From Modestobacter sp. VKM Ac-2984 (GTDB taxonomy: Bacteria; Actinomycetota; Actinomycetes; Mycobacteriales; Geodermatophilaceae): DNA of 64,000 nt. Positions 9,216 through 32,739 of the stretch are shown here, one piece after another (within the stretch, counting starts at the first letter, position 1; each line of letters opens with the position of its first letter). A program made the translations under genes and the position numbers. Location: contig NZ_JAPVBJ010000002.1 in NCBI RefSeq assembly GCF_026967985.1, positions 548,691 through 612,690 of the forward strand, in the 5' to 3' direction. The notes below the pieces were generated by a model that saw only the letters and a list, made by a program, of their open reading frames with translations, was not told the origin of the DNA and ran no database searches.

Positions 9216-9230
9216 CTACTCGCGGGTAAC
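9216..9230 (-). promoter_or_regulatory. Operator-like near-palindrome, copy 1
   Basis: CTACTCGCGGGTAAC covers these positions. Its core TACTCGCGGGTA is a palindrome except for one pair. On the minus strand it begins 3 bp after the -10 box TACGGT, so it spans the predicted transcription start of the acyl-CoA dehydrogenase gene, a repressor position. The same 15 bases recur at 32725-32739. Confidence 0.6.
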
Positions 9231-9233
9231 AAG

Positions 9234-9262
9234 ACCGTATGACCGGCCGGTGACCACAGCAA
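9234..9262 (-). promoter_or_regulatory. Promoter of the acyl-CoA dehydrogenase gene
   Basis: On the minus strand TTGCTG (9262-9257) and TACGGT (9239-9234) are separated by exactly 17 bp, a good SigA-type arrangement. Confidence 0.6.
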
Positions 9263-9291
9263 GCACCTCGGCCGCAGCTCGCCCTGCGGGG

Positions 9292-9462
9292 TCAGTCCGC
9301 CGGGCGGGCGTCGGGCTCGGTCTCCGGAGGCGGGTACACCGGGCCGGCCATGCCGTCGGCGCCGTCGTCCCCCGGGGTGGGGGAGACGGCGCCGCCCAGC
9401 GGCTCGACGTCGTGCTCGTCCCGGTCCTGCTCGTCCGGCCGGTCCTGCGGGGAGCTGGTCAT
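9292..9462 (-). CDS. Small acidic Pro-rich protein, 56 aa
   Basis: The ATG at 9462 opens a 56-aa frame. The N-terminal third is highly charged (QDRPDEQDRDEHDVE) and the remainder is rich in Gly and Pro (PVYPPPETEPD). It is predicted disordered and cytoplasmic. It sits 46 bp from the neighbouring 140-aa gene on the same strand and may be its downstream partner. I see no strong ribosome site. Function unknown; one of several such tiny proteins in this region. Confidence 0.5.
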   Translation of the reverse strand: MTSSPQDRPDEQDRDEHDVEPLGGAVSPTPGDDGADGMAGPVYPPPETEPDARPAD

Positions 9463-9507
9463 GCCCCGAGTCTCGACCGCGGGCCGTCCGGCGGCGAGCC
9501 GGGCAGC

Positions 9508-9930
9508 TCAGCCGTCCAGCGCCGGCCCGGCCTCGTGGCGGGGGTGCCCGGACGTGCGCTCGCGCTGCTTCATCCGCGCCTCGAACACGTGTCGGTCGCC
9601 GCCGGCCAGCTCGTCCCGGGCGCGCTGGTCGAAGGCCCGGTAGGTGCTCCAGTAGTTCGCGTCGTAGTCCTCGACGAGCTGGAAGGTCCACCGGTCGGCG
9701 ATCACGTTGCGACCGACGAGGTCGCGCTCGAGGTCGTCGGCCAGCTCGGTGTGCCCGGCGTCGCGGAGGCCGGCGACGGCGTCCTGGAGGAGGAGGTCGG
9801 CCTTGCCGGTGAGCTGGTGGAAGCCGTACAGCAGGCCGCGGGCCTGCTCGACGGTCTCGAGGGACTCGGAGAGCTTGCCCAGGGCGACGACGGTGGCCTC
9901 GTCGAGGTCCGGACGCGAACGGTCGGTCAT
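9508..9930 (-). CDS. Conserved hypothetical helical protein, 140 aa
   Basis: This soluble protein appears largely alpha-helical (LGKLSESLETVEQARGLLYGFHQLTGKADLLLQDAVAGL), with an aromatic block WTFQLVEDYDANYWSTY in the middle and a basic, probably flexible C-terminus. The ATG at 9930 is the first sensible start. I associate the pattern with an uncharacterised actinobacterial family but cannot name a domain. It lies just downstream of the TetR gene on the same strand, separated by a dispersed repeat element, so co-regulation is uncertain. Confidence 0.75.
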   Translation of the reverse strand: MTDRSRPDLDEATVVALGKLSESLETVEQARGLLYGFHQLTGKADLLLQDAVAGLRDAGHTELADDLERDLVGRNVIADRWTFQLVEDYDANYWSTYRAFDQRARDELAGGDRHVFEARMKQRERTSGHPRHEAGPALDG

Positions 9931-9965
9931 GGACCGATCCTGCGGGTGCCCGCGTCGTCCTGCCC

Positions 9966-10025
9966 GGCGGCCCCGCTGCAGGGGCCCGCGAGCGTACGAG
10001 TGGGGGGCAGCGGGGTCCTCCTTCA
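9966..10025 (-). repeat. Dispersed imperfect-palindrome repeat, copy A
   Basis: One of four related 60-bp elements (others at 20081-20139, 30303-30366, 48316-48378). Outer arms CCCCGCTGC and GCAGCGGGG pair; the centre reads CCGCGAGCGTACGAGTGGGG. It overlaps the TetR stop codon (10023-10025) and probably acts as its terminator. Confidence 0.6.
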
Positions 10026-10652
10026 GGCGGAGGCGAGGGCGGCGTCGATCAGCTTCTCGGCCAGTTGACGCCCGTGCGAGGCGGGGCCGTCCGGGCCGAG
10101 CAGACCGCCGGAGAGGTACATCCCGTCGATGATCAGGTGCACCTGTGCGGCGAGGTCGTCGCCGCCGCCGGGGATGAGCTGGTCGGCCAGGCCCTCGAGC
10201 CGGGAGTGCAGCTCGAACTTGTAGTCGGCGGCCGCGCTGCGGGCCGGGTGCTGCGGGTCGTCGTACTCGCTGCTGACGTTGGTGAACGGGCAGCCGCGGA
10301 AGCCGACCCGGGTGACGTCGGCCTCGACGGCGTCGACCACCGAGAGCAGCGCGGCCCGCGGGTCGCCCTGGCGTTCGTCGAGCTCGGCGTCGATGTAGGC
10401 CAGCACGGTGGCGGCCTTGCGCGAGAGGTAGGCGCCGACCAGGTCGTCCTTGCTCTTGAAGAGCCGGTAGACCGTCATCTTCCCCAGGCCGGTCTCGCGG
10501 ACGAGCTCGTCCATCCCCACGCTGCGCGAGCTGCGCGCCGAGAAGAGACGCTCGGCCGTGTCCAGGACGATCTCCTGCCGTTCCGCGCGGGAGCGACGGG
10601 CCGGCAGGGCGCCGTCCTCTGGTGCGTGCAGGGGGAGGGCTGCGGCGGTCAC
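10023..10652 (-). CDS. TetR/AcrR-family transcriptional regulator
   Basis: This is a regulator of about 209 aa. The N-terminal helix-turn-helix is clear (IVLDTAERLFSARSSRSVGMDELVRETGLGKMTVYRLFKSKDDL). The ligand domain contains GFRGCPFTNVSSEY, a pattern common in AcrR-like proteins that repress efflux or lipid genes. The GTG at 10652 was chosen from homology to the usual N-terminal length; an in-frame GTG at 10724 is possible but its ribosome site is badly spaced. Its target is unknown. The operator upstream of the nearby acyl-CoA dehydrogenase gene is one candidate, since TetR proteins often control such genes. Confidence 0.88.
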   Translation of the reverse strand: MTAAALPLHAPEDGALPARRSRAERQEIVLDTAERLFSARSSRSVGMDELVRETGLGKMTVYRLFKSKDDLVGAYLSRKAATVLAYIDAELDERQGDPRAALLSVVDAVEADVTRVGFRGCPFTNVSSEYDDPQHPARSAAADYKFELHSRLEGLADQLIPGGGDDLAAQVHLIIDGMYLSGGLLGPDGPASHGRQLAEKLIDAALASA

Positions 10653-10772
10653 GGTCTGATCGTGCAGCACATCGTGACGGAGCGGTCCACGGCACGCCGA
10701 GGGGGACAGGCCCCTGACCAGCACCTCCGGGGCGAGAGGAGCACCCGGGGCAGTGGGGAACTGTGAGGCGGT

Positions 10773-10824
10773 TGTGACTCTCCGCTGTGACTCTCCGCTG
10801 TGCCGCTCCGCTGTGCCGCTCCAC
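10773..10824. repeat. Four tandem copies of a 13-bp unit
   Basis: Units start at 10773, 10786, 10799 and 10812. The first two are identical (TGTGACTCTCCGC); the third and fourth are variants (TGTGCCGCTCCGC, TGTGCCGCTCCAC). The array lies in the 194-bp gap between the TetR gene and a 39-aa gene. It may be a multi-site operator or a slippage product. Confidence 0.75.
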
Positions 10825-10846
10825 GTGGGGAGCCGGCCGGCTGGGA

Positions 10847-10966
10847 TCAGGCGCGGCGGGTGCGCCGGGGGTTGGCCAGCATCCGGGCGACCGCCTGCTG
10901 CGGGGTCTGCTCCTCGCCGGAGGTGGTGGTGTCGTCGAGCTGCTGGTCGCGGGCGTCTTCGTGCAT
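10847..10966 (-). CDS. Very small hydrophilic protein, 39 aa
   Basis: A GGGAGGGTGAGGGC ribosome site lies directly before the ATG at 10966. The first 20 residues are acidic and Thr/Gln-rich (HEDARDQQLDDTTTSGEEQ) and the last 19 are basic (VARMLANPRRTRRA), giving a bipolar charge pattern. No domain is recognised. It precedes the metal ABC transporter genes' terminus on the same strand, 79 bp away. Reality rests on the strong ribosome site. Confidence 0.5.
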   Translation of the reverse strand: MHEDARDQQLDDTTTSGEEQTPQQAVARMLANPRRTRRA

Positions 10967-11044
10967 GCCCTCACCCTCCCCTGCCGGGCGAGCCGGAAAA
11001 CCGCCCCGAGCCAACTCGGCCCCCATCGGGTGGTGAGACCTCGC

Positions 11045-11926
11045 TCACCTGGTGCGGTCGGGGACCAGCAGGGGCACGTCCAGCACCGGGGCGGAGGTCT
11101 CCCGCGGCACGCGTTCCCAGGTGAGGAGCAGGGTCACCGCCCAGGTCAGGACGGCGAGGGTGGTCACGAAGAAGCTCGGCGGCAGGTTCACCATCGCCGA
11201 GAGGACCAGGCCGAACCAGACGCTGCCCAGGGCGATGGCCACGGCGATCGCGGCCACCAGCCCGGGCCGGGCGGTCATCCGCAGCGCCGCCGCGGCCGGG
11301 GTCACCACCAGGGCGAACAGCAGCAGCGTGCCCACCACCTGCACGGCCATCGTGATGGTCAGCGCGAGCAGGACGACGAAGGCCACGCCCAGGGCGCGGA
11401 CCGGGACCCCGCGGGCCTCCGCCACGGTCGGGTCCACCGAGGCGAAGACGAGGGGCCGGGCGATGACGGCCAGCACGCCGACCACCAGCACGGTGAACCC
11501 GCCGAAGACCCACAGCTGGTCGCGGGAGATGGCCAGCAGGTTCCCGAACAGCACGGTCGTGGTGCTGCTGGCGTTCGCGGTGGCCAGCGAGGCGAACAGC
11601 ACGCCCAAGCCGGTGGCGAAGGCGAGGATCGTGCCGGTGGCCACCTCCCGGTCGGCCACCCGCTTCCCGAACAGCCCGATCAGCAGCCCGCCGCCGACGC
11701 AGAAGACCGCCAGGCCCAGCGTCACCGGGGCGCCGACCAGGATGGCGCCGGTCGCGCCGGGGAAGCCGATGTGGGCCAGGGCGTGGGCGGCGAAGGCGTT
11801 CTGCCGGGTGACGACGAACCAGCCCATCAGCCCGGCGGCCAGCGCGACCATCGAACCGCCGAGCAGGGCGTGCTGCATGAACGTGGTCTGCAGCACCTGC
11901 AGCCAGTTCTCCTGGAAGGTGACCAC
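11045..11926 (-). CDS. znuB: Zinc/manganese ABC importer permease
   Basis: This 293-aa ABC-3 family permease has about eight hydrophobic segments (for example MVALAAGLMGWFVV and AVTLLLTW). It also has the family blocks AFAAHALAHIGFPGATG and VVGTLLLFALVVTPAAAAL. GTG start at 11926, 3 bp after the ATPase stop. It is the last gene of a three-gene metal uptake operon (binding protein, ATPase, permease). The exact metal, zinc or manganese, cannot be fixed from the permease alone; the His-rich binding protein favours zinc. Confidence 0.93.
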   Translation of the reverse strand: MVTFQENWLQVLQTTFMQHALLGGSMVALAAGLMGWFVVTRQNAFAAHALAHIGFPGATGAILVGAPVTLGLAVFCVGGGLLIGLFGKRVADREVATGTILAFATGLGVLFASLATANASSTTTVLFGNLLAISRDQLWVFGGFTVLVVGVLAVIARPLVFASVDPTVAEARGVPVRALGVAFVVLLALTITMAVQVVGTLLLFALVVTPAAAALRMTARPGLVAAIAVAIALGSVWFGLVLSAMVNLPPSFFVTTLAVLTWAVTLLLTWERVPRETSAPVLDVPLLVPDRTR

Positions 11927-11929
11927 GGC

Positions 11930-12727
11930 TCAACCGCCCCGGGTGAAGAGATCGCCCTGCGCGGTGCGCACCACCCGGACCGGGGTGCCGTACAGGTGGG
12001 TGAGCAGGTCCTCGGTGACGACGGCGTCGATCGGGTCGTGGTGCGGGTGCCCGTCGAGCAGGTACACGGCATCGGTGAGCACGGGCAGCAGCGGGTTGAG
12101 GTCGTGCGCGACGACCATCACCGTGACCCGGCGCTCGCGGGTGAGCTCGCCGAGCAGCGCGACCACCTCGTGCTGGTTGCGCAGGTCCAGGTTGGCCAGC
12201 GGCTCGTCCAGCAGCAGCAGCTCGGCGTCGTCGACGATCGCCTGGGCGATCGCGACCCGCTGCTGCTGACCACCGGAGAGCTCCGACATCCGCCGGTCGG
12301 CGTAGCCGGCGGCGCCGACCCGGTCGAGCGCCTCGTCGACCCGGGCCCGCTCGGCGGCCGAGGCGCGGCGCAGCCCGAAGCGCCCCCCGGTCAGGCCGAG
12401 CATGACCAGGTCGCGGGCGCGCACCGCCTCGCCCAGCGCGGCGGTGTAGTTCTGCGGCACGTAGCCGATCCGGCGGTCACCCCGGCTGGGGGTGCGGCCG
12501 AGCACCTCGACCCGCCCGCCGGCGGGGGGCAGCATGCCGAGGACGAGCTGGAACAGCGTGGTCTTCCCGGCGCCGTTGGGCCCGATGACCCCGACCACGG
12601 CACCGGTGGGCACGGTGAGCGTGCCCTGCGACCAGACCAGCCGGCCGCCGCGGACCACCGAGACGTCGTCGAGGACGAGCGCCGGTGGCCGCACGGCGAG
12701 CCGGTCGGCCGTCGGGACGTCTGTCAC
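11930..12727 (-). CDS. znuC: Zinc/manganese ABC importer ATPase
   Basis: This 265-aa ATPase has Walker A GPNGAGKT, signature LSGGQQQR and Walker B LLLLDEP, with the AHDLN switch histidine. The start overlaps the binding-protein stop by 4 bp (ATGA on the minus strand) and the permease follows 3 bp later, so all three are co-translated. It powers metal import through the permease. Confidence 0.95.
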   Translation of the reverse strand: MTDVPTADRLAVRPPALVLDDVSVVRGGRLVWSQGTLTVPTGAVVGVIGPNGAGKTTLFQLVLGMLPPAGGRVEVLGRTPSRGDRRIGYVPQNYTAALGEAVRARDLVMLGLTGGRFGLRRASAAERARVDEALDRVGAAGYADRRMSELSGGQQQRVAIAQAIVDDAELLLLDEPLANLDLRNQHEVVALLGELTRERRVTVMVVAHDLNPLLPVLTDAVYLLDGHPHHDPIDAVVTEDLLTHLYGTPVRVVRTAQGDLFTRGG

Positions 12728-13752
12728 TGACCCCCACCGAGTGCGTTCGACAGCTGCTGCAGCTGGTCCAGCTGCCAGGACACGAAGGACGACTCCCCGT
12801 CCGGCGCCGACTCGGTGACCTCGACGACCGGCACCCCGGCCGTCTCCGCCGCGGCGCGCAGCTGCTCGGGGAGGCTGCCCTCCGTCTGAGAGTTGTACAC
12901 CAGGACGTCGACCGAACCGTCGGCCAGCGCCGCCTCGAACGCGGCCACGTCGCCGGGCGCCGGGTCGGTCTCGTTGCTGGCGGCGTCCCGGTAGCCCTCG
13001 GGGGTGGCGTCGGTCAGGCCGATGGCCTCGGCGGTGTACTGGAACACGCTCTCCGTGGCGGCGTACGAGCGACCGGCGGCGGAGGACTGCAGGGCCGCCA
13101 GCTCGTCCAGGTAGGGCTGCAGGTCGGACTCCCAGGCCTGCGCCTGCTCGGCGAAGTGGTCGGCAGCGTCCGGCGACAGCTCACCGAGCTGCTCGGTCAC
13201 CGCAGCGGCGACGGCCTGCACGTACTCGGGTGAGTACCAGAGGTGCGGGTTGACGCCGCCGTGGCCGTGCTCCTCCTCGGCGTGCTCCTCGCCCTTGGAG
13301 GGCTCCTCCTCCGCGTGCTCCTCCTCTTCCGCGTGCTCCTCCTCGATGCCGACCACCTCGGCCGCGTCGACGACGGTGGGCGCGGGGTCGAGGGTGGCGA
13401 CGGCGTCGGCGGCCCAGTGGTCGTAGTCGGCACCGTTGAGCACGACCAGCTCGGCGTCGGTGAACGCGGCGATGTCGGCGGTCGTCGGCTCGTAGTCGTG
13501 CGGGTCGACCGCCGAGGAGGCGAGCACGGTGGTGACGTTGGTGCAGTCACCGCCCAGCTGCTCGACGATCGAGCCCCACTGGCTCACCGAGACGACGACG
13601 TCGAGGACCTCACCGGGACAGCTCTCCGCGTCGGCCGCGCTGGTCGTGGTGCCCGCGCCGGCGCTGGGGCCCCCACAGGCGGCGAGGGTCAGCGTGGCGG
13701 TGGCGGCCAGGGCGGTGAGCGCCGGGCGGCGGGACAGGGCGAGGCGGGGCAC
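12724..13752 (-). CDS. znuA: Zinc-binding lipoprotein of metal ABC importer
   Basis: This 342-aa ZnuA/TroA-family solute-binding lipoprotein has a signal peptide ending in the lipobox LAAC (lipid Cys26). A Glu/His-rich loop (repeated HAEEE with GHGG) near residues 140-170 is the hallmark of zinc-type ZnuA. Metal-ligand region NPHLWYSPEYV follows, and a late Asp-containing loop (SQTEGSLPEQ) is present. GTG start at 13752 with GAGGA upstream. It delivers extracytoplasmic zinc to the ZnuBC membrane complex. A Zur-box-like sequence lies about 40 bp upstream. Confidence 0.93.
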   Translation of the reverse strand: MPRLALSRRPALTALAATATLTLAACGGPSAGAGTTTSAADAESCPGEVLDVVVSVSQWGSIVEQLGGDCTNVTTVLASSAVDPHDYEPTTADIAAFTDAELVVLNGADYDHWAADAVATLDPAPTVVDAAEVVGIEEEHAEEEEHAEEEPSKGEEHAEEEHGHGGVNPHLWYSPEYVQAVAAAVTEQLGELSPDAADHFAEQAQAWESDLQPYLDELAALQSSAAGRSYAATESVFQYTAEAIGLTDATPEGYRDAASNETDPAPGDVAAFEAALADGSVDVLVYNSQTEGSLPEQLRAAAETAGVPVVEVTESAPDGESSFVSWQLDQLQQLSNALGGGQ

Positions 13753-13789
13753 GGTGGGTCCTCACGGGAGTGGCTACTGGGAATGGTCG

Positions 13790-13804
13790 TCACAATCAGT
13801 ATCA
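13790..13804 (-). promoter_or_regulatory. Possible Zur box upstream of znuA
   Basis: The minus strand reads TGATACTGATTGTGA. It matches 11 of 15 positions of the actinobacterial Zur consensus TGAAAATGATTTTCA as I remember it. It lies 38-52 bp upstream of the znuA start, and zinc-repressed expression would fit. Confidence 0.4.
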
Positions 13805-13873
13805 CCCCAGCCGTGCGCTGCGTCGATGTCGGTCCCCCCACAGCGGGCCCCGCCCCGACCTGCAGGGCCCAGG

Positions 13874-14074
13874 TCAGGCCCCGGTCACCCGGTTCTCCGG
13901 GTCCACGCCCGCGGCCGGGTCGCTGCCCTCGGTCGGGTCGCTGCCCTCGGTCGGGTCGCCGCCCTCGGCCGGCTGCTCGGGGTGCGGCGTGCGGCCGGTC
14001 TCGTGCTGGTCGCTCGTGGCGTCGCCCTCGGCGGGCTCAGCGGGGTGCGGGGTGCGTCCGGTGTTCTCGGTCAT
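13874..14074 (-). CDS. Small repetitive Pro/Glu-rich protein, 66 aa
   Basis: The frame from ATG at 14074 gives 66 aa with internal repeats: GRTPHPAEPAEGD and GRTPHPEQPAEGGD, then DPTEGS twice in tandem. It has almost no hydrophobic residues and should be disordered. The ribosome site is weak (GGGGCACGGGGC). It lies between znuA and ribokinase on the same strand. The repeat periodicity suggests recent internal duplication. Function unknown. Confidence 0.5.
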   Translation of the reverse strand: MTENTGRTPHPAEPAEGDATSDQHETGRTPHPEQPAEGGDPTEGSDPTEGSDPAAGVDPENRVTGA

Positions 14075-14110
14075 GCCCGCCCCGTGCCCCCGCCCGCGGC
14101 GGCGCAACCA

Positions 14111-15034
14111 TCAGCCGACCGGCGTCGCCGCGGGGGTCTGGGGCAGCAGCGCCTGGACCTCGTCGTCGTCCGGCAGCGCACCGCGCGCGCCCGCGCCGGT
14201 CGTCGACAGCGCCGCCGCCGTGACCGCGTAGCGGACCGCGTCGGCCAGCGTCTCGCCGCGGTCTAGCGCGCTGCTCAGCGCACCGCAGAAGCAGTCGCCG
14301 GCGCCGGTGGTGTCGACCGGCTCGACCGGCGGGGGCCCCTGCACGTGCGCCGGACCCTCCGCGGGCACCACCAGAGCGCCCCGTGCGCCCAGGGTGACCA
14401 CCGTCGACCGCACGCCCAGCCCGCAGGCCAGCTCGGCCAGCTCGCCGGGGGAGAGCTCGCCGGACGGCGCGCCGGTCAGCCGGCGCAGCTCGTGCTCGTT
14501 GGGCACCAGGACGTCGACCCGGGCCAGCAGGTCGGCCGGCAGCGGCTGCGGCGGCGCCGGGTTCAGGACGACGGTTCCCCGGGTGGCCGCAGCGGCGGCC
14601 TGCACCGTGTCCAGCGGGCTCTCCAGCTGCAGCAGCAGCACGCCGGCGCGGTGCACCGACTCCACGTCGACGTCCGCGGGGGTCAGCTCGGCGTTGGCGC
14701 CGGGCACCACCACGATCAGGTTCTCCCCGCCGGCCGCCTCGACCGGGATCATGGCCGACCCGGTGGGCACGCCCTCGGTGCGGTGCACCCGCCCCACGTT
14801 CACCCGCGCGTCGGCGAGGGCGGCGAGCTGCCGGCCGGCCGCCGGGTCGGTGCCGACCCGGCCGACCATGTGCACGCCGGTGCCCAGCCGGCCGGCGGCG
14901 GCGGCCTGGTTGGCGCCCTTGCCTCCGGGCAGGACCGCGACCGAGGAGCCGATGACGGTCTCCCCGCGGCCGGGCAGCCGGTCGACGGTCACCACGACGT
15001 CCTCGTTGAGGCTCCCCACCACGGTCACGGACAC
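14111..15034 (-). CDS. rbsK: Ribokinase (PfkB family)
   Basis: This 307-aa cytoplasmic sugar kinase phosphorylates ribose to ribose-5-phosphate with ATP. It shows the N-terminal GSLNEDVVV and PGGKGANQAAAAGRLG block (PfkB signature 1), and DTTGAGDCFCGAL near the C-terminus (signature 2, with the catalytic Asp and anion-hole glycines). Length is normal for RbsK. GTG start. No ribose transporter is adjacent, so it may serve nucleoside salvage; specificity for another pentose is possible. Confidence 0.92.
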   Translation of the reverse strand: MSVTVVGSLNEDVVVTVDRLPGRGETVIGSSVAVLPGGKGANQAAAAGRLGTGVHMVGRVGTDPAAGRQLAALADARVNVGRVHRTEGVPTGSAMIPVEAAGGENLIVVVPGANAELTPADVDVESVHRAGVLLLQLESPLDTVQAAAAATRGTVVLNPAPPQPLPADLLARVDVLVPNEHELRRLTGAPSGELSPGELAELACGLGVRSTVVTLGARGALVVPAEGPAHVQGPPPVEPVDTTGAGDCFCGALSSALDRGETLADAVRYAVTAAALSTTGAGARGALPDDDEVQALLPQTPAATPVG

Positions 15035-15079
15035 GGCATCTCCCCGGTGGTCACCACGGCGCCAGCGTAGAGAGGCCGC

Positions 15080-15580: not shown

Positions 15581-15627
15581 CTGCCTGCGGTACCGCAGGC
15601 GCAGCCGATCGACACCCGGAGACGCCC

Positions 15628-15981: not shown

Positions 15982-15991
15982 CCTCGCCGGC

Positions 15992-22360: not shown

Positions 22361-25054
22361 TCAGAGCAACACGCCTCGGCAGCTGGTGCTGCAGTCCAGC
22401 GACCAGAACGAGCTGCCCAGCCGCCCGAAGGCCGCCGAGCGCACCAGCCGCTCGCCGTTCGGCCCGACCGCGGTGACCACGGACGAGCCGCCGCCGGTGT
22501 CCGGGGTGCTCCCGGCATCCGGCGCCGTCCCGTCGTCGGTGCCCGGCGCGGAGTCCGTGCCGCCATCGCTGGTCGGCTCCTCGACGTAGGTGAGGCCGTC
22601 GGCCAGCACCGAGGACTCCGTGCCGGACGGACCGAAGACGAAGACGTCGTACACACCCGCCACCAGCTCCGGAGCGGTGAAGACGACCGACGTGTTGTCG
22701 GCGCTGACGACGGTGGCCTCCCGGGTGTCCCCGATCCGCACCCGTGCGCCGTTGGGGACGTTGGTGCCGGTGACCGTGACGCGCGTCCCGCCGGCGGTGC
22801 TGACGACCGCCGGGGAGATGCTGGTCAGCCCGAACGGCCCGACCTCCGGATAGGTGACGACGGACGGCGGCGGGGTGGTGTCACCCGGCGCGGGATCCAC
22901 GCTGGACCCGGTGTCGCTGCCCGGGACGGGGGTGCCGGGGTCGGTGGTGCCCGGGTCCGTCCCTGGGTCGCTGGTCCCCGGCTCGGCGGGGCCCGGGTTC
23001 GGTCCTGGGTCGCTGGTCTCTGGCTCGGCGGGGTCCGTGGTGCCGGGGCCCGTGGTGTCCGGATCCGTGGTGTCCGGGTCCGTGGGGTCAGGGTCCGTGG
23101 TGCCCGGGCCGGTCGTCCCGGGGTCGTCCGTTCCCGGGCCCGTGGTGTCGGGGTCGCTGGTGCCGGGGCCACTGGTGCCCGGGTCGGCCGTGCCGGGGCC
23201 CGGGGTGCCGGGGTCGGTGGTGCCCGGGACCGTCGTCCCGGGGGTGCTCGTGCCCGGGTCGGTGCTGCCGTCGGTGCCGGGGTCGGTCGTTCCGGGGCCG
23301 GTCCCGGGCGTCGTCCCGCTGTCCGGCGCGGGCGCCGGCGTGGCGCCGACCAGCAGCGGCGCGGCGAAGGTGTCGCCGAACGGCTGACCGTCGACGATCA
23401 GCTGCGCGCTGAGCGCGTATCGGCCGGGGGCCAGGTCGACCGAGGGGGCCACCTCCAGGCCCTCCACCGTGGTCAGCGCACCCAGCGGGACGGTGACCTG
23501 GCCGGCGTCGTCCGTGGTCAGCGTCGCTCCCGCGACCGTGACGTCCTCACCGGAGAGCGCCCAGACCTCGCCGCCGTGCTCCATGCCCAGGCTCAGCACC
23601 ATCTCGTAGGTGCCGGCCAGGTCCGGGCCGGTCGCTCGGACCAGCGGTGTCGCCTGCCCCGCCGGGGCCGTCATCGAGGTGAACCTGTAGCCGACACTGG
23701 TCTCGGGTGCCAGGTGGCTGAGGGTCAGCCGGCCGCCGGTCACCGACTTCCCCTGGAAGGCGGTGATCGGGTCGACGTCCGCCAGCAGCGCGGCCTTCAG
23801 CTCGGCGGCCGTGGCGGTCGGCATGGTGGTCCGGTAGAGCGCCAGTGCGGCTGCGACGTGCGGTGCGGCGATCGACGTCCCGCTCACCAATCGGTAGCTG
23901 CCGTCGTTCCAGGTGGTCGCCACCTTGTTGCCGGGGGCGAACAGGTCCACCGACGTCGCTCCGTAGGCGGAGCTGGCGGAGACGCCGTCCTCCGCATTGG
24001 AGCTGCCCACGACGACGAGGTTGTCGTCCGGCAGGCTCGCCGGGTAGAACATCGAGGAGTCGCGGTCGAGCGCGTCGTTGCCCGCTGCGGCCACGATCAG
24101 GACCCCCTTGCTGGCCGCGTAGGCGATGGCCGACTGCAGGTTCGTCAGTGCGCTCCCGGTGAACTGACCTCCCCACGATGCGTTGATGATCGTGGCGCCG
24201 TGGTCGACGGCGTAGCGGATGGCCTGTGCGCCGAGGTTGGCGTCGACGGAGTCCCCGCTGCCGATGACCAGCGGCATGATGGTCGCCTTCGGCGCCACAC
24301 CCGCAGAACCGATGCCGTTCCCCGCGCGAGCGGCGAGGACGCCGGCGACCGAGGCCCCGTGCGTGCCGTTCGCCCCGTTGTCCACGTCGGGGCTGTTCGC
24401 GGAGAAGTTCCAGCCGTGACAGTCCCCGGTCAGTCCGTCACCGTCGGCGTCCTCCGTGCAGGACGGATTGGTCCACAACGACCCGGCCAGGTCCGGGTGG
24501 TCGGAGTCGAAGCCGGTGTCGGTGAGGGCGATGACGACGCCTTCACCGGTGGAGGCGCTCCAGCCGTCGGTCACGTCGACGTCGGCGTCGGCCGTGGCTA
24601 CCTGCTGGTACACGTTCGTTCCCGTGTTCTCCAGGTTCCAGCCGTACTGGGCCGCATAGGGGTCGCTGACCGTCCCGAGCGCCGGGATCGACGGCGACAG
24701 CTCGACGTCGGCCACGCCAGGCAGTGATCGCAGGGTCTGTACCGAGATGCCGTCGGTCGCCACCAGCGCGGTGCCGTCGTAGAGCCGCTGCGCGGAGTCG
24801 ACGCCGTCCTGCTGGTCCAGATCGGCCAGGAACTCCGGCGTCGCGTCCCCCGCTGCTCCGGTGACCACGTACCGGGTGAGGCCGTCGCCGGCGCCGAAGC
24901 CGTCGGCGACGGCGATCGGGAGGCCGGGCCCGGCCAGGGCGTCCACTGCGGCCGCGCCGCCGAAGCCGGTCAGCGCAGCGGCGACGACGGCGACCATGCG
25001 CACGCCCCGGCCGTGCGCGGGCAGCCGACTGCCCTGGTGGCCCACGAGATCCAT
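22361..25054 (-). CDS. Secreted S8 subtilisin-like protease with linker and IPT/TIG domain
   Basis: This is an 897-aa exported serine protease. A hydrophobic signal segment (residues about 20-45) is followed by a prodomain-like region to about 125. The S8 catalytic domain has Asp179 (ALTDTGFDSDH), His232 (GTHGASVAGV), oxyanion Asn326 (AAGN) and Ser394 (SGTSIAAPHVA). A beta-rich region comes next. A linker of about 140 residues built from GTTDPGT-like units spans roughly 600-740, and an IPT/TIG fold (ISPAVVSTAGGTRVTVTGTNVP) lies at about 750-830. The C-terminus has a Cys pair (LDCSTSCRG). No LPXTG or transmembrane anchor is seen. Likely roles are extracellular protein turnover or surface processing. 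Confidence 0.9.
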   Translation of the reverse strand: MDLVGHQGSRLPAHGRGVRMVAVVAAALTGFGGAAAVDALAGPGLPIAVADGFGAGDGLTRYVVTGAAGDATPEFLADLDQQDGVDSAQRLYDGTALVATDGISVQTLRSLPGVADVELSPSIPALGTVSDPYAAQYGWNLENTGTNVYQQVATADADVDVTDGWSASTGEGVVIALTDTGFDSDHPDLAGSLWTNPSCTEDADGDGLTGDCHGWNFSANSPDVDNGANGTHGASVAGVLAARAGNGIGSAGVAPKATIMPLVIGSGDSVDANLGAQAIRYAVDHGATIINASWGGQFTGSALTNLQSAIAYAASKGVLIVAAAGNDALDRDSSMFYPASLPDDNLVVVGSSNAEDGVSASSAYGATSVDLFAPGNKVATTWNDGSYRLVSGTSIAAPHVAAALALYRTTMPTATAAELKAALLADVDPITAFQGKSVTGGRLTLSHLAPETSVGYRFTSMTAPAGQATPLVRATGPDLAGTYEMVLSLGMEHGGEVWALSGEDVTVAGATLTTDDAGQVTVPLGALTTVEGLEVAPSVDLAPGRYALSAQLIVDGQPFGDTFAAPLLVGATPAPAPDSGTTPGTGPGTTDPGTDGSTDPGTSTPGTTVPGTTDPGTPGPGTADPGTSGPGTSDPDTTGPGTDDPGTTGPGTTDPDPTDPDTTDPDTTGPGTTDPAEPETSDPGPNPGPAEPGTSDPGTDPGTTDPGTPVPGSDTGSSVDPAPGDTTPPPSVVTYPEVGPFGLTSISPAVVSTAGGTRVTVTGTNVPNGARVRIGDTREATVVSADNTSVVFTAPELVAGVYDVFVFGPSGTESSVLADGLTYVEEPTSDGGTDSAPGTDDGTAPDAGSTPDTGGGSSVVTAVGPNGERLVRSAAFGRLGSSFWSLDCSTSCRGVLL
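22905..23335. repeat. Degenerate tandem repeat encoding PGTTDPGT-type linker
   Basis: Within the subtilase gene, short units such as GGGTCGGTGGTGCC and variants recur for about 430 bp. They encode a Gly/Pro/Thr/Asp linker. Such arrays change length readily by slippage and are difficult to assemble. Confidence 0.75.
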
Positions 25055-26712: not shown

Positions 26713-26835
26713 CCCGCCCCTCTCTCTGTGTGCTCGAGTTCCGGCACCGGTCGGTGCCTCTTGGTCATCGGCAGTCCGGCGGTGAGATCGAGCCTGGCCA
26801 CCGGAACGGGACGAAGGTCCCGGCAGGCCGGTCCC

Positions 26836-26841
26836 TAGACT
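26836..26841 (+). promoter_or_regulatory. -10 box of leaderless dcd promoter
   Basis: TAGACT is followed by 7 bases and the dcd ATG; no ribosome site precedes the start. Confidence 0.55.
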
Positions 26842-26848
26842 CCGCGCC

Positions 26849-27442
26849 ATGCTGCTGTCCGACCGCGACATCCGAGCGGCCCTGGCGACCGGCCGGCTCG
26901 GGATCGAGCCCTACGAGCCGGCGATGGTGCAGCCCTCGAGCATCGACGTCCGGCTCGACCGGTTCTTCCGGGTGTTCAACAACGCCCGGTACACCCACAT
27001 CGACCCGGCCGAGCAGCAGGACGACCTGACCACCCTCGTCGAGCCGACCGGCGACGACGCCTTCGTGCTGCACCCGGGCGAGTTCGTGCTCGGGTCGACG
27101 CTGGAGGTCGTCAGCATCCCCGACGACCTGGCCGCCCGGCTGGAGGGGAAGTCCTCGCTGGGGCGCTTGGGCCTGCTCACCCACTCGACGGCGGGGTTCG
27201 TCGACCCCGGGTTCTCCGGGCACATCACGCTGGAGCTCTCCAACGTGGCGAACCTGCCGATCACGCTGTGGCCGGGGATGAAGATCGGCCAGCTGTGCCT
27301 GTTCCAGCTGAGCTCGGCCGCCGAGCACCCCTACGGCTCGGCGCTCTACGGCTCGCGCTACCAGGACCAGCGCGGGCCGACGCCGTCCCGGTCCTTCCGC
27401 AACTTCAACCGGGCCGAGACCCGCCGCCCCGACCCGGCCTGA
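26849..27442 (+). CDS. dcd: dCTP deaminase
   Basis: This 197-aa trimeric dUTPase-superfamily enzyme deaminates dCTP. In mycobacterial-type homologues it also cleaves the product directly to dUMP. Motifs: [18 protein letters not shown] (residues 26-43), [24 protein letters not shown] (in two parts, 99-122) and ITLEL with catalytic Glu129, then the C-terminal [20 protein letters not shown]. Length is normal. It starts from a leaderless-type promoter. It supplies dUMP for thymidylate synthesis. It stands alone, divergent from the PAS/MCP pair. Confidence 0.95.
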
Positions 27443-27532
27443 CCCGTCTCCCGGGTGGCGGGTGTCCGACCCCTCGGTGAACGGTGGCGCCAAGCCGGAT
27501 GACGGGCCGCCTTGCTGGGTAGGCCCTGCCCC

Positions 27533-28306
27533 ATGGACCCCCGGGACACTGCTGTTCTCCTGCCTCAGCCGTCGGGCAACCACATCGTGGACGGATTCTT
27601 CGACTGCGCCGAGGAGTCGGCGCACTACGCGTTCTCGGTCCAGCTCCTGCTGACCCAGTACGCGACCCTGGTGCCCTGGCAGGCCGAGGGCGTGGCGGAG
27701 CTCGGCAGCGGTGACGCGCGGGCCATCGCGCACGTCGTGCGGGCGGTGCCCGGCTTGCAGGTGCACGGCACCGACATCAGCACGACGTCGGTCGAGCGGG
27801 CCCGGCAGACGATCGACGGCCTCGGCGTCGGCGACCGCTACACCGTCGAGCACGGTGACTTCTTCGCCTGGGCCGACTCCCCGGACGGGCGGGACGTCTC
27901 CACGGTGATCGCCAACCCGCCCTACATCCCCGCGCCGGACGCCGACATCCTGATGCCCGAGCTCTGGGGCGGCTGGTACGGCAACGACATGGTCCTCCGG
28001 CTGCTCAAGGCCGGTTTCGAGCACCTGCTGGTCGCGCTGCCCAGTTACTCCGACCCCGCCGCCACCCTGTCCACGGCCCGCGACCTCGGGTACCAGGTGG
28101 CCAACTTCCTGGCGATGGGCCTGGAGTTCGGGGCCTACAGCGGGGAGCCGAAGGTCCGGGAGCACATCGCCGCGCTCACCGCGGACGGGCACGGCTGGGC
28201 GGGCGAGGACTCCTACGTCGTCGCCGTCGCGCTGCTCACCCGGTCACCGGAGCTGCGCCGGGACCGGTCGACCGAACTGCTCCGCGCCCTGCAGCTGTCG
28301 GTCTGA
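27533..28306 (+). CDS. Class I SAM methyltransferase (HemK/PrmC-like small-MT family)
   Basis: This 257-aa protein has SAM motif I ELGSGDA (56-62), acidic loop HGTDIS, and a NPPYIPAP motif at 128-135. NPPY is typical of N-methyltransferases acting on glutamine or on a base, including PrmC/HemK and RNA methyltransferases. There is no PrmC-type N-terminal helical domain, so it is not a standard release-factor enzyme. The ATG at 27533 gives the best N-terminus; a TTG at 27512 is possible. It is convergent with the MFS gene. Substrate unknown. Confidence 0.8.
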   Translation: MDPRDTAVLLPQPSGNHIVDGFFDCAEESAHYAFSVQLLLTQYATLVPWQAEGVAELGSGDARAIAHVVRAVPGLQVHGTDISTTSVERARQTIDGLGVGDRYTVEHGDFFAWADSPDGRDVSTVIANPPYIPAPDADILMPELWGGWYGNDMVLRLLKAGFEHLLVALPSYSDPAATLSTARDLGYQVANFLAMGLEFGAYSGEPKVREHIAALTADGHGWAGEDSYVVAVALLTRSPELRRDRSTELLRALQLSV

Positions 28307-28316
28307 GCCCGGTCGG

Positions 28317-29627
28317 TCAGCGCTCGGTCCGCGGGAGGAGGACGGGCGGTTCGGCCCCGGCGACCTCGGTCTCCGGGAAGTCGCCGAGGCGAGCGGCCGG
28401 GCCGACGAGCCCGGGCACCTCGTCGTCGACGTACCGCGGCCGGCAGATGCTCCAGCCGGTGACCAGCAGCAGCCCAACCCCGGCGTAGACCAACACGAAC
28501 ATGCCGGTGTAGCCGCCGGTGACGCCCCGCAGCAGGCCGACCAGCAGCGGCCCCACCCCGGCCAGCGCGTACCCCCAGCCCTGGGCGACGGTGGACAGGG
28601 CGCTCACCGACTCCGGGGTGCGGCCGCGCAGCCCGAAGAGGGCCAGGATCATCGCGAACGTGCCCATGCCCAACCCGAGCAGGCAGACCCACAGCCAGGT
28701 CAGCGTGAGCGGGGCGAGCAGCAGGCCGGTCCAGCCGGCCAGGTAACAGGCGATGAAGGCCAGCAGCATCGGCCGCTGCCAGTGCGGCCGCACCGTGCCG
28801 AGCGGGACGACGGCGTTGAGCGGGATGACGATCAGTGCGTTCAGCCCGACCAGGAAACCGGCCGCCTCCGCGGACATGCCCTGGTCGCGGAGGTACTGCG
28901 CCGTCCAGCCGACGATGACGTAGGCCTGCATCGCCTGCAGCCCGAAGAAGGCGGCCATCGTCCAGGCCAGCCGACTGCGTCGGAGCTCCCGCAGCCGCAC
29001 CGCGGTGTGCCCGCCCCGGGAGGCGCCCGGCCGGACGGGGACGGCGAGCCAGGGCAGCGCCGCGAGCAGGGCGAACACCGCCCAGATGCCCAGTCCCCAG
29101 CGCCAGCCGTCGGCGCCGGCGGCCGCGGCGATCGGCGCCGTGGAGACGGCGGCGACCGCCCCGCCGATCGCCAGCGCGGTGCTGTAGGCGCCCACCAGCA
29201 GGCCGGTGCGCTCCGGGAACCACCGCTTGACCAGTCCGGGGAGCAGCACGTTGCCGAGCGCCCCGCCGACCATCGTGGCCACGGTGCCGAGGAGGAACAC
29301 CCACACGTTGGGCACCGACACCCGCAGCAGCAGCCCGATCGCCATGACCAGCAGGGCCGCGGCCAGCACGTGCCCGTCGCGGAACCGGGCGGCCAGCGGC
29401 GGGCCGGCGAAGCCGATCAGCGCGAAGCAGATCAGCGGCATGCTGGTGATCAGTCCGGCGAGGCCGGAGGAGATGCCCAGGCCGCGTTCGATCTCCTGCA
29501 GCACCGGGCCGACGCTGTTGACCGCGGTGCGCAGGTTGAACCCGGTCAGCACGATCGCCGTCCCGACCAGGACCAGCCCCTGCCGGGAGGACGTGCGCGG
29601 CGGCAGCGAGGCGGCGGCGCGGGTCAC
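28317..29627 (-). CDS. CynX/NimT-family MFS permease
   Basis: This 436-aa transporter has 12 predicted membrane segments. The N-terminal GFNLRTAVNSVGPVLQEI and LVKRWFPERTGLLVGAYSTALAIGG blocks are typical of the cyanate/nitroimidazole CynX-NimT branch of the major facilitator superfamily. Substrate is not predictable; small anions or drugs are known for relatives. The GTG at 29627 is preceded by GGAGGAGGATGAGCGGAC. The C-terminal 35 residues are a hydrophilic tail. Confidence 0.87.
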   Translation of the reverse strand: MTRAAASLPPRTSSRQGLVLVGTAIVLTGFNLRTAVNSVGPVLQEIERGLGISSGLAGLITSMPLICFALIGFAGPPLAARFRDGHVLAAALLVMAIGLLLRVSVPNVWVFLLGTVATMVGGALGNVLLPGLVKRWFPERTGLLVGAYSTALAIGGAVAAVSTAPIAAAAGADGWRWGLGIWAVFALLAALPWLAVPVRPGASRGGHTAVRLRELRRSRLAWTMAAFFGLQAMQAYVIVGWTAQYLRDQGMSAEAAGFLVGLNALIVIPLNAVVPLGTVRPHWQRPMLLAFIACYLAGWTGLLLAPLTLTWLWVCLLGLGMGTFAMILALFGLRGRTPESVSALSTVAQGWGYALAGVGPLLVGLLRGVTGGYTGMFVLVYAGVGLLLVTGWSICRPRYVDDEVPGLVGPAARLGDFPETEVAGAEPPVLLPRTER

Positions 29628-29693
29628 GTCCGCTCATCCTCCTCCCCGAGCCGCGGCAGGCCGGGAGCCGGGTCGGGGCCGGGCCGCGTCGGG

Positions 29694-30254
29694 TCAGCGG
29701 GTGTCGGTCACCGTGACCGGGACCTCGGCCACCTGTTCGGTCGTCCCGTCGACGGCCACCCGCAGCATCACCAGGTCGTGGACGCCGTCACCGGCCGGGG
29801 CGGCCAACTGCAGGACCGGACTCAGGCACTGGGGCAGCCGGAACGCCGGTCCGGCCGCGGTCTGGGTGTAGCTGACGGTGCTGCCGGCGTCGCCGCGGAC
29901 CGGTTCGCCGTCCAGGGTCATCACGTAGTCGACGTCCTCGGCCCCGGTCACCCGGAACCGCAGCGGCTGGCCGGCGGCCACGACACTGCTGGCGACGGCG
30001 ATCCCCGGGTCGTCGCAGTCGGCGGTGAGGGTCACGTCCTCGGCACCCCGGCCGCCGGCGACGGCGAGCACCGTCATCGCCACGATCGCGACGGCCAGCC
30101 AGGTCCAGTGCCGGCTGCGCCGGATCGTCGGGCGGTCGTCGGCCAGCGCGCGCTCGTCGTTGACGTCGCGGGCGTAGTGCATCCGGGTGCTGCGGGAGGC
30201 CGCGGCGCGCTCGGCCTCGCCCCGACGACGGCCGCCGCCGTACGGAGAGCTCAT
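29694..30254 (-). CDS. Hypothetical single-pass membrane protein, 186 aa
   Basis: The first 50 residues are cytoplasmic and basic (YGGGRRRGEAERAAASRSTR). One transmembrane helix (WTWLAVAIVAMTVLAVAGG, about 53-71) is followed by an exported domain of about 110 residues rich in beta strands, with cysteines at CDD and LPQCLSP that may form a disulfide. No domain is recognised. The ATG at 30254 gives the simplest topology. It lies downstream of the EtfD-like gene but a repeat/terminator element separates them. Confidence 0.7.
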   Translation of the reverse strand: MSSPYGGGRRRGEAERAAASRSTRMHYARDVNDERALADDRPTIRRSRHWTWLAVAIVAMTVLAVAGGRGAEDVTLTADCDDPGIAVASSVVAAGQPLRFRVTGAEDVDYVMTLDGEPVRGDAGSTVSYTQTAAGPAFRLPQCLSPVLQLAAPAGDGVHDLVMLRVAVDGTTEQVAEVPVTVTDTR

Positions 30255-30302
30255 GCCGCCCAGTGTCCGCCCCAGGTGTGCGGTCGCGTCATCCTCGTCC
30301 TG

Positions 30303-30366
30303 CGGCCCCCGTGCAGGGTCCCGCCGCGAGCCTGCGAGTGGTGGGGGGCACGGGGGTCCTTCTTCA
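30303..30366 (-). repeat. Dispersed imperfect-palindrome repeat, copy B
   Basis: Outer arms CCCCCGTGC and GCACGGGGG pair. The centre contains CCGCCGCGAGCCTGCGAG, identical to copy C. It overlaps the stop codon of the EtfD-like gene (30364-30366). Confidence 0.65.
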
Positions 30367-32655
30367 GCTGTGCTGGGTGGCGGCGGAGCCGGTGCCGGCC
30401 GGGTCGTCGGGCTCGGTGCCCACGCCCGGGCCGGACTCCGTGCCCGGCGCACCCGCGGGGGCCATGGAACGGAGCAGGATCTGGCTGACGTCCAGGACCT
30501 CGACGTGCGACTTCGCCTCGCCGGCCTGCTGCTTGCTGGTCACCGCGTCGCTCAGCATGGTGATGCAGAACGGGCACGCGGTGGAGATGACGTCCGGGTC
30601 CAGCTCGAGCGCCTCCTCGGTGCGCTCGACGTTGATCCGCTTGCCGATCTTCTCCTCCATCCACATCCGCGCGCCGCCGGCACCGCAGCAGAAGCCGCGG
30701 TCCTTGCAGCGGTGCATCTCTTGGGTGGTCAGGCCCTGCACGGAGTCGAGGATCTCCCGCGGGGGCGTGTAGACCTTGTTGTGCCGGCCCAGGAAGCACG
30801 GGTCGTGGTAGGTGACCTTGCGGTCGATCGGGGTGACCGGGGTCAGCCGCCCCTCCTCGACCAGCTGGCCGAGCAGCTGGGTGTGGTGGACGACGTCGTA
30901 GTCGCCGCCGAGCTGCGGGTACTCGCGGTTGATCGAGTTGAAGCAGTGCGGGCAGGTGGCGACGATCTTCCGCCGTCCGGCCGGGCGCTCCTCGAAGACG
31001 GCGTTCAGCGTCTCCACGTTCTCCTGCGCCAGCTGCTGGAACAGGAACTCGTTGCCCATCCGGCGGGCCGGGTCACCCGAGCAGGTCTCCCCGTTGCCCA
31101 GGACGGCGAACTCCACGTCGGCGATGTGCAGCAGCTCGGCGACGGCCTTGGTGACCTTCTTGGCGCGGTCGTCGATGGCGCCGGCGCAGCCGACCCAGAA
31201 CAGGTACTCGACGTCGTCGTCGATGGCGCCCTCGACCTGCCGGACCTCGAAGTCCAGCTCCTTCATCCACTCCTCGCGGACGTTGCCGCCCACGCCCCAC
31301 GGGTTCCCGCGGTTCTCCAGGTTGCGCATCATCACGCCGGCCTCGGAGGGGAAGCTGGACTCGATCAGCACCTGGTAGCGGCGCATGTCCATGATGTGGT
31401 CGACGTGCTCGATGTCGACCGGGCACTGCTCGACGCAGGCACCGCAGTTGGTGCAGCTCCACAGCACGTCGGGGTCGATGACCCCGCCCTCCTCGAGGGT
31501 GCCGACCAGCGGGCGGTGTGCCTGGGCGTCGTTGGTGCCCTCGATCCGGGCGTAGCCCGACGCCCAGACCTGCTCGTCGCTGGGCTCCAGGGTGGTGAAG
31601 TCGGCGAAGTTCGGGGCCTCGTCGGAGGCCTTGGTCGCGCCGGTCAGGTACGGGGCCTTGGCGTACAGGTGGTCCCGCAGGTCCATGATCACCATCTTCG
31701 GCGACAAGGGCTTGCCGGTGTTCCAGGCCGGGCACTGGCTCTGGCACCGCCCGCACTCGGTGCAGGTGGTGAAGTCCAGCATCCCCTTCCAGGTGAAGTC
31801 CTCGATCTTGCCGCGGCCGAAGACGTCGTCCTCACCGGGGTCCTCGAAGTCGATCGGCTTGCCGCCCGACGTCATCGCCGGCAGCGGGCCGAGGGCCTGG
31901 GAGCCGTCGTCCTCACGCTTGAAGTAGATGTTGAAGAACGCGCTGAACCGGTGCCACGCGACGCCCATGTTGAGCACCCGGGAGATGGTGATCAGCCAGC
32001 CGAGCGAGACGACGATCTTGATGAAGGCGACGATCGACAGCAGGTCGGGGTTCGCCGGGACGATGTTCGCCAGCGCTCCGGAGATCGGGTGCGACCAGGC
32101 CGGGGCGTCGGTCAGGTCGGCGGAGACCTTGATCGCGCGGATCAGCAGGATGCAGATGCCGATGGTCAGGACGACGGCCTCGACGAAGTAGCCGCGCCCC
32201 TCGTTGGACCCGGCGAACCGGCTGGCCCGGCCCTTGCGGCGCGGGTGGTCGAGCTGCCGCCGGACGATCAGGTACAGGATGCCCAGGACCGTGGCGGCGC
32301 CGATCAGGTCGACGAAGAGGTTCCAGAGCGCCCACTCGCCGATCAGCGGGAGGTGCCACTCCGGGTCGAAGACCTCGCCGAACGCCTCGACGAGGGTGAG
32401 GAAGAGGCCGTAGAACCCGATGAAGACGAACCAGTGGGCGGCGCCGATGGCCGACCACTTGAGCATCCGGGTGTGCCCCAGCGACTCGACGGCCAGCGTC
32501 TTCAGCCGCGGGCCGACCGGGCCGGAGCGGGTCGGGTCGGGCTGGCCGCTGCGGAAGATCCGCAGCATCGCGCGGACGGCCTTGGTGGCGTAGACCACCG
32601 AGACGATCAGCAGGATCACGGCCAGCGTGCCGAGGACGATCTGCAACGGGCCCAT
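30364..32655 (-). CDS. etfD: EtfD-like membrane Fe-S ETF:quinone oxidoreductase
   Basis: This is a 763-aa membrane protein. The N-terminal NarI-like part (residues 1-245) has about six transmembrane helices with conserved histidines. Two 4Fe-4S motifs follow: CTECGRCQSQCP (Cys298, 301, 304, 308) and CTNCGACVEQCP (401, 404, 407, 411). Two cysteine-rich CCG domains then appear (FWVGCAG ... CCGAGGARMWMEEK). This order is that of mycobacterial EtfD (Rv0338c type), which takes electrons from EtfBA into the quinone pool and is needed for beta-oxidation. ATG at 32655 with GAGGGAGCTC before it. The promoter carries the same operator-like site as the FadE5-like gene. Confidence 0.9.
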   Translation of the reverse strand: MGPLQIVLGTLAVILLIVSVVYATKAVRAMLRIFRSGQPDPTRSGPVGPRLKTLAVESLGHTRMLKWSAIGAAHWFVFIGFYGLFLTLVEAFGEVFDPEWHLPLIGEWALWNLFVDLIGAATVLGILYLIVRRQLDHPRRKGRASRFAGSNEGRGYFVEAVVLTIGICILLIRAIKVSADLTDAPAWSHPISGALANIVPANPDLLSIVAFIKIVVSLGWLITISRVLNMGVAWHRFSAFFNIYFKREDDGSQALGPLPAMTSGGKPIDFEDPGEDDVFGRGKIEDFTWKGMLDFTTCTECGRCQSQCPAWNTGKPLSPKMVIMDLRDHLYAKAPYLTGATKASDEAPNFADFTTLEPSDEQVWASGYARIEGTNDAQAHRPLVGTLEEGGVIDPDVLWSCTNCGACVEQCPVDIEHVDHIMDMRRYQVLIESSFPSEAGVMMRNLENRGNPWGVGGNVREEWMKELDFEVRQVEGAIDDDVEYLFWVGCAGAIDDRAKKVTKAVAELLHIADVEFAVLGNGETCSGDPARRMGNEFLFQQLAQENVETLNAVFEERPAGRRKIVATCPHCFNSINREYPQLGGDYDVVHHTQLLGQLVEEGRLTPVTPIDRKVTYHDPCFLGRHNKVYTPPREILDSVQGLTTQEMHRCKDRGFCCGAGGARMWMEEKIGKRINVERTEEALELDPDVISTACPFCITMLSDAVTSKQQAGEAKSHVEVLDVSQILLRSMAPAGAPGTESGPGVGTEPDDPAGTGSAATQHS

Positions 32656-32724
32656 GAGCTCCCTCTCGTGCGTGCGCGGGCGTCGTCGCCCACCCGGCAC
32701 GGACACTAACCGGGCGGCCACAGG

Positions 32725-32739
32725 CTACTCGCGGGTAAC
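32725..32739 (-). promoter_or_regulatory. Operator-like near-palindrome, copy 2
   Basis: CTACTCGCGGGTAAC, identical to 9216-9230, lies 70-84 bp upstream of the EtfD-like ATG. A possible -10 TAGTGT (minus strand, 32708-32703) is 17 bp downstream, so the site would cover the -35 region. Confidence 0.6.

Follow-up and report, generated by a model that had tools for sequence, protein, structure and literature searches.

Why should one short sequence stand in front of two genes that lie about 21 kb apart? This question is raised by a stretch of 64,000 nucleotides from Modestobacter sp. VKM Ac-2984 (contig NZ_JAPVBJ010000002.1, positions 548,691 to 612,690), referred to below as the window, with coordinates counted over its whole length. 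The genes concerned encode a FadE5-like acyl-CoA dehydrogenase and an EtfD-like membrane oxidoreductase, whose products act in the route of electrons from acyl-CoA to quinone. In mycobacterial membrane vesicles, proton pumping driven by butyryl-CoA needs EtfD and rises when electron transfer flavoprotein (ETF) and FadE5 are added (PMC13083937). The switch-on of fatty-acid oxidation in actinobacteria is poorly described, and a 2017 paper on Streptomyces coelicolor stated that there had until then been no description of the signals and genes that regulate the catabolism of fatty acids in these bacteria (PMC5539140).

The answer that we regard as quite probable is that the shared sequence is the operator of a fatty-acid-oxidation regulon conserved across the class, at which a FasR-like repressor, released by acyl-CoA, would act on the 16-bp palindrome GYTACYNNNNRGTARC. 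This explanation is built from sequence comparison and from analogy with a studied mycobacterial regulator, and it supplies an operator, a list of targets, and a directly testable regulator.

Two operator copies in the window

The 15-mer CTACTCGCGGGTAAC is located at 9216-9230 and 32725-32739, with no further exact copy on either strand of the 4.56 Mb genome (reversed control, 0). Both copies lie 5' of minus-strand genes, ~40 bp from the ATG of the FadE5-like gene and ~70 bp from that of the EtfD-like gene. The inner 12 bp form a palindrome with one mismatched pair, and the 15-mer is one form of GYTACYNNNNRGTARC. These positions, the near-palindromic core, a well-formed FadE5-like promoter directly upstream of the first copy, and the roles of the two products had been described in the initial annotation; the first three were confirmed by scanning the sequence, and the roles agree with the structural matches given below and with the vesicle data.

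The FadE5-like gene (7330-9174, minus strand) encodes a protein of 614 amino acids (aa) with Pfam acyl-CoA dehydrogenase domains. Its best matches among solved structures are 6kpt and 6kse (E 6.5e-249; next other protein, 6e-88); residues 1-614 align over the full length to residues 1-611 of 6kpt, and 6kse carries the name FadE5. The promoter consists of a -35 element TTGCTG (9257-9262) and a -10 element TACGGT (9234-9239), both on the minus strand and separated by a 17-bp spacer. The operator (9215-9230; CCTACTCGCGGGTAAC on the plus strand, GTTACCCGCGAGTAGG on the gene's strand) is located just 3' of the -10 element, over the expected transcription start. What is probably a degenerate partner operator (9239-9254; GTCACCGGCCGGTCAT on the gene's strand, three mismatches, 6.5 bits) lies 24 bp upstream of it, in the spacer between -35 and -10, which is the tandem position found in relatives.

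The EtfD-like gene (30364-32655, minus strand) encodes a membrane oxidoreductase of 763 aa with Pfam 4Fe-4S (Fer4) and CCG domains, and its best structural match is 9ojn, an 'iron-sulfur-binding reductase' (E 7.3e-239), which we infer to be EtfD from the molecule name together with a 2026 paper on the EtfD structure. The operator (32724-32739, GTTACCCGCGAGTAGC on the gene's strand) matches GYTACYNNNNRGTARC exactly and scores 22.9 bits. If the candidate -10 element TAGTGT (32703-32708, minus strand), proposed from sequence alone, is the one in use, this operator would cover the -35 region. A palindrome overlapping the core promoter, as is typical of TetR-type repressors, is present at fadE5; at etfD, such an overlap depends on a promoter that is itself a candidate. 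As a separate observation, fadE5 and etfD are found on one contig, ~11-18 kb apart, in at least five other genomes (G037, G045, G059, G065, and G102).

Sites were scored in bits with a weight matrix trained on other genomes only. At 14 bits or more, the window contains just the fadE5 (19.3) and etfD (22.9) operators, the next-best site scoring 10.2, and 20 Markov-resampled windows contained none. A third TACYN4RGTA sequence, at 24599, scores 9.3 bits. Two mismatch-tolerant scans of the window alone returned three and six matches, numbers reached by 11 and 33 of 100 shuffles, respectively, and thus no significant excess. The evidence for the operator consequently rests on the whole genome and on relatives.

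The operator across the genome

The core TACYCGCGRGTA has three genomic copies, the third of which is a perfect palindrome ~30 bp before another acyl-CoA dehydrogenase gene. When one mismatch was allowed, the 16-mer GYTACYCGCGRGTARC gave seven sites, every one of them before genes of beta-oxidation or electron transfer: etfD, the FadE5-like gene, etfB-etfA, an AMP-binding acyl-CoA ligase, a thiolase, and two further acyl-CoA dehydrogenases. The relaxed palindrome GYTACYNNNNRGTARC had eight exact matches (control, 0), seven of which could be placed. At up to three mismatches, the fixed-core 16-mer was uninformative in this genome, with 202 sites against 205 in the control.

Four sites with two mismatches precede two more acyl-CoA dehydrogenases, an HpcH/HpaI-type lyase, and a crotonyl-CoA carboxylase/reductase, the last assigned by TIGR01751 with 289 bits over half the gene, under the whole-protein cut-off. 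The operator-like sites before the carboxylase/reductase and the lyase are L402 (G000:C16:206025) and L027 (G000:C3:113356). They suggest that acetyl-CoA assimilation through the ethylmalonyl-CoA pathway joins the regulon. Judged by its sites, the regulon seems larger than two genes and would also include etfBA, four further acyl-CoA dehydrogenases, the thiolase, the acyl-CoA ligase, the crotonyl-CoA carboxylase/reductase, and the HpcH/HpaI-type lyase.

Conservation of the operator in relatives

Conservation was followed in a class-wide set of 118 genomes, of which 92 have FadE5 orthologs, in 98 copies. The weight matrix derives from 50 training sites in 25 FadE5 upstream regions, and the main threshold was set at 14 bits. 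A site at this threshold is present in 92 of the 98 FadE5 upstream regions, and all 92 genomes have one before at least one copy; the six misses fall in six two-copy genomes of a single family (f8), with one copy affected in each. Among the regions outside the training set, 67 of 73 carry a site. In a subset of 64 regions, 62 sites were found, against none with the reversed matrix and 0.1 expected from mononucleotide shuffles. A chance match of the two 15-mers, for which the window-only scans might speak, is rejected in view of this conservation before FadE5, and the probability that we leave to it is practically negligible.

The arrangement of the sites is conserved as well. Tandem pairs (sites of at least 8 bits, 20-28 bp apart) occur in 67 of 97 FadE5 regions, most commonly with a spacing of 24 or 25, while in five of the 97 the offset is 13 bp. 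TTG immediately precedes the first operator in 48 of the 67 tandem promoters, as opposed to 7 of 67 in an equal window 30 bp farther up. In fadE5 of relatives, the first operator therefore occupies the stretch from -35 to -10, and the start lies under the second.

For EtfD and EtfB, matched in 100 and 107 genomes, the 30 best loci of each were used, including those of Modestobacter, with a few regions shortened by contig ends. Sites of at least 14 bits were found at 23 of 30 EtfD loci (reversed matrix, 1; shuffles, 0.1) and at 19 of 30 EtfB loci (reversed matrix, 0; shuffles, 0.1). In 39 near genomes, the exact fixed-core 16-mer occurs once in each of 11 genomes (control, 0), and six of these sites precede etfD or fadE5. 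Enrichment of the motif before fad and etf genes, expected by the initial annotation, is thus borne out, as is strongly its idea of a shared operator tuning acyl-CoA oxidation together with electron disposal; its picture calls for revision in the size of the regulon and in the choice of regulator.

The same annotation had named as a nearby candidate the TetR-family regulator encoded at 10023-10652 (minus strand; best PDB match, 3g7r). The proposal that this protein binds both sites draws on its family and on its location 0.8 kb from the fadE5 operator. Its own promoter lacks the motif, its recognition region is a different one (GLGKMTVYRLF), and no relative of it was found within flanks of up to 1.5 kb at 29 other FadE5 loci of the class, though the operator is kept there. 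From these comparisons, it is a very unlikely regulator. Among the 36 TetR loci of the genome, 30 were scanned, and no promoter of a TetR gene in this set contained a 14-bit site.

Two further observations concern the motif in other families. At L141 (G064:C17:4292), it stands before a gene resembling, by eye, the site-bearing thiolase of Modestobacter. Family f25 (G071, G047, and G089; L392-L401, L139, and L140) carries a dispersed repeat in many copies, with two inverted operator-like palindromes 53 bp apart, and G071 has 93 copies of GYTACYNNNNRGTARC (control, 0). This repeat is perhaps a small element, mobile or palindromic, carrying the regulator's site.

A FasR-like protein as the candidate regulator

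Which protein, then, recognizes the operator? The candidate favored here is a TetR protein encoded outside the window (C16:68907-69497; TetR_N, E 2.3e-17). Its best match among solved structures is FasR of Mycobacterium tuberculosis (6o6p, E 4.8e-55; next protein, 3.3e-18), with 94 of 202 aligned residues identical, and the recognition helix GVSKPVLYQHF is the same in both proteins. At five positions mutated in the FasR paper, the protein is identical at L98 and L185 and similar at L106M, F123Y, and V163I (positions from PMC7382501). Against NCBIfam NF053731 (mycobacterial FasR), it scores 247 bits over profile positions 2-198 of 199, under the curated cut-off of 330, which only 6 of the 118 class genomes pass; it is therefore called FasR-like and not FasR. 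A by-eye comparison of neighborhoods found a small 'VEVKIGV...' protein and a second similar protein, '...TWLE.LVK.YVGD...', near the gene both in L073, whose protein is over the cut-off, and in L103, the Modestobacter locus, the small gene differing in orientation between the two. The closest named relatives of the protein, among the best 80 of 582, are from Geodermatophilaceae, with 88% to a Modestobacter metagenome-assembled genome.

The operator is also found before fasR itself. Nine of the 30 best class loci have a site of at least 14 bits in the ~100 bp that precede fasR (control, 0 in 200 kb); three of the nine come from one family, where the region is common to a divergent acyl-CoA dehydrogenase. 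Of the 582 relatives, the 80 best named loci were examined, and 39 of them have TACYN4RGTA within ~400 bp upstream of the fasR match, from which distances were counted (control, 0/80). Streptomyces contributes 24 of these 39, out of its 26 loci, in the form GTTACYSAAAAGTACG or close to it. At 10 bits, the matrix finds sites at 31 of the 80 named loci and the reversed matrix at two; named Geodermatophilaceae loci (L265-L278) have such a site in 7 of 14.

A further link comes from published structural data. The oligonucleotide co-crystallized with FasR (PMC7382501) matches four of six genomes of family f8, within 29-bp stretches such as GTTACTGGCGAGTTCTACGCACGGGTAAC. Such a stretch can be read as a pair of 16-mers, both imperfect (5.5-12.9 bits), whose offset of 13 bp is the one found in the five fadE5 regions mentioned above. 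The co-crystal DNA contains half-sites of the motif. In the crystal, neighboring dimers occupy a single DNA fragment (PMC7382501), an arrangement that fits overlapping 16-mers. All four of these loci (L345-L348) have a further palindrome, GTTACGGTCGAGTAGC or close to it, 96 bp from the crystal-oligonucleotide site; it is possibly another published FasR inverted repeat.

Two known operators were also compared with the motif and rejected: the sequence proposed for MftR, TCCATTCTGGCACTCGATGCCATATAT, and the published MadR consensus TCTGTGxxxxxxxGT both misfit it. Searches of open-licence PMC texts found no paper with the motif strings and, among the titles and excerpts listed, none joining FasR/Rv3208 with fadE5/Rv0338c and none calling FasR a general regulator of fat degradation.

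Distribution of FasR-like genes and points against the reading

FasR-like TetR proteins scoring above 200 bits are encoded in 101 of the 118 class genomes. Three f25 genomes were left out of the site count because of their repeat (121 sites vs 2). In the 98 remaining genomes with a FasR-like gene, 406 sites were counted against 176 in the control; in the 17 without one, 16 against 25. FadE5 and FasR tend to occur together: genomes with FadE5 number 89 with and 3 without FasR, and those lacking FadE5 number 12 with and 14 without.

Several observations weigh against a FasR-like repressor of this regulon. The foremost is that two profile searches detected no FasR-like gene in three genomes (G090, G105, and G106) that still carry the operator before fadE5; G105 also keeps sites before EtfD and EtfB, and all three hold TetR proteins in the score range of the FasR paralog considered below. 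Draft-assembly gaps or a different binding protein are both possible explanations. The Fisher value for the co-occurrence of FadE5 and FasR, 8.9e-9, is uncorrected for kinship, and the 12 genomes with FasR and without FadE5 show only a small excess of sites (29 vs 22). The Modestobacter protein falls short of the mycobacterial FasR cut-off, its own promoter has only a weak site (TCTACCGTCGGGTAGG, 5.8 bits), the fas sites are imperfect, and 21 of the 30 class fasR loci lack a 14-bit site in the available stretch.

The operator itself is not uniformly placed. No 14-bit site was found at 7 of 30 EtfD and 11 of 30 EtfB regions, and five of the 11 exact fixed-core sites in near genomes are located elsewhere than at fad or etf genes or are unplaced. 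At two mismatches, the Modestobacter genome has 16 sites, and just the four listed above have fat-metabolism genes downstream; at least eight of the others fall inside coding frames or at their ends, and L025, L032, L405, and C15:492890 are unplaced. Published work adds two points: M. tuberculosis FasR (Rv3208) is an activator of fas-acpS (PMC7382501; this system is also treated in PMC7652896), and the transcripts of etfD in M. tuberculosis change with iron, through IdeR, and with peroxide (PMC8593149), which means that FasR need not be the sole regulator. Apart from these points, it was seen that the weak site before the Modestobacter fasR gene (L103:1801-1816) touches the first start codon of a divergent gene, alpha/beta hydrolase-like by eye.

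The FasR-less genomes and the weak site bear on a second reading, in which a genuine operator governs beta-oxidation and the binder is another conserved regulator, such as the FasR paralog at C18:143466-144035 or an unrecognized protein. The three genomes that retain the operator have candidates of this kind, yet four other FasR-less genomes (G043, G083, G101, and G152), whose best matches are in the same score range (104-122 bits, not necessarily all of one paralog family), have no motif or one. Moreover, the recognition region of the paralog differs (GTSKTVVYRHF), and the motif stands before fasR in several genera and supplies half-sites to the FasR co-crystal DNA. We consider another binder unlikely, though a possibility to be kept in mind, and retain the FasR-like protein as the probable one.

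Proposed mechanism

A dimer of the FasR-like protein (C16:68907-69497) would bind GYTACYNNNNRGTARC. At fadE5, with operators in the -35/-10 spacer and over the transcription start, the bound protein would block RNA polymerase; repression is thus suggested by position. M. tuberculosis FasR, a protein with a long acyl-CoA tunnel, was reported to leave DNA on binding acyl-CoA of C16 or longer, and by analogy, long-chain acyl-CoA may release the FasR-like protein, so that acyl-CoA dehydrogenases, ETF, and EtfD would be switched on together. Such joint induction would give electrons derived from acyl-CoA a route to quinone. The reach of the operator in Modestobacter to crotonyl-CoA carboxylase/reductase and the HpcH/HpaI-type lyase possibly links beta-oxidation with acetyl-CoA assimilation.

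The sign of regulation could be the opposite, with the FasR-like protein binding the same sites and activating the beta-oxidation genes, as might be supposed from the activation of fas-acpS by FasR (PMC7382501) and from the EtfD operator lying upstream of the candidate -10 element. The fadE5 operators, in the promoter spacer and across the start, are however in a polymerase-blocking position, and an activator removed by acyl-CoA would presumably turn off fat oxidation just as its substrate appears. Activation of these genes is accordingly judged improbable, and repression remains the preferred reading.

With less assurance, we lean towards a broader view, in which FasR-like proteins, released by acyl-CoA, are the general repressors of fatty-acid degradation in the class, with acyl-CoA dehydrogenases, ETF, EtfD, thiolase, acyl-CoA ligase, and in many genomes their own gene under their control, and the activation of type I fatty-acid synthase (FAS-I) in mycobacteria is a later addition. 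If true, FasR, studied as an activator of synthesis, would be recast as a regulator of degradation, and the joint expression of the dehydrogenase, ETF, and EtfD steps of one electron route would be explained.

Comparison with known systems

The FasR-like protein resembles FasR of M. tuberculosis in overall sequence, in its GVSKPVLYQHF helix, and in the half-sites that the crystal DNA shares with the motif. The difference lies in the targets: FasR activates fatty-acid synthesis (fas-acpS), whereas the sites described here are in promoters of fatty-acid oxidation and, at fadE5, in a repressor position.

Deletion of madR lowered the transcripts of five putative acyl-CoA dehydrogenases, which its authors read as an indirect effect. 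MadR, BkaR, and KstR of mycobacteria are likewise TetR regulators of lipid or keto-acid metabolism, but with other targets. The TetR-type FadR of Bacillus and Thermus is an acyl-CoA-responsive repressor of beta-oxidation genes. It is only distantly related to the FasR-like protein (PDB 3whb and 1vi0, E ~4e-8), and its operator presumably differs from the motif found here.

FadR of Escherichia coli is a GntR-family protein, released by acyl-CoA, that regulates both fatty-acid degradation and synthesis. The FasR-like protein would act alike, as one acyl-CoA-released regulator for degradation and, where FAS-I exists, for synthesis. The protein family and the operator are unrelated to those of E. 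coli FadR, and the dual role is here only proposed. If this holds, FasR would be the actinobacterial counterpart of E. coli FadR, with one acyl-CoA signal driving degradation and synthesis in opposite directions.

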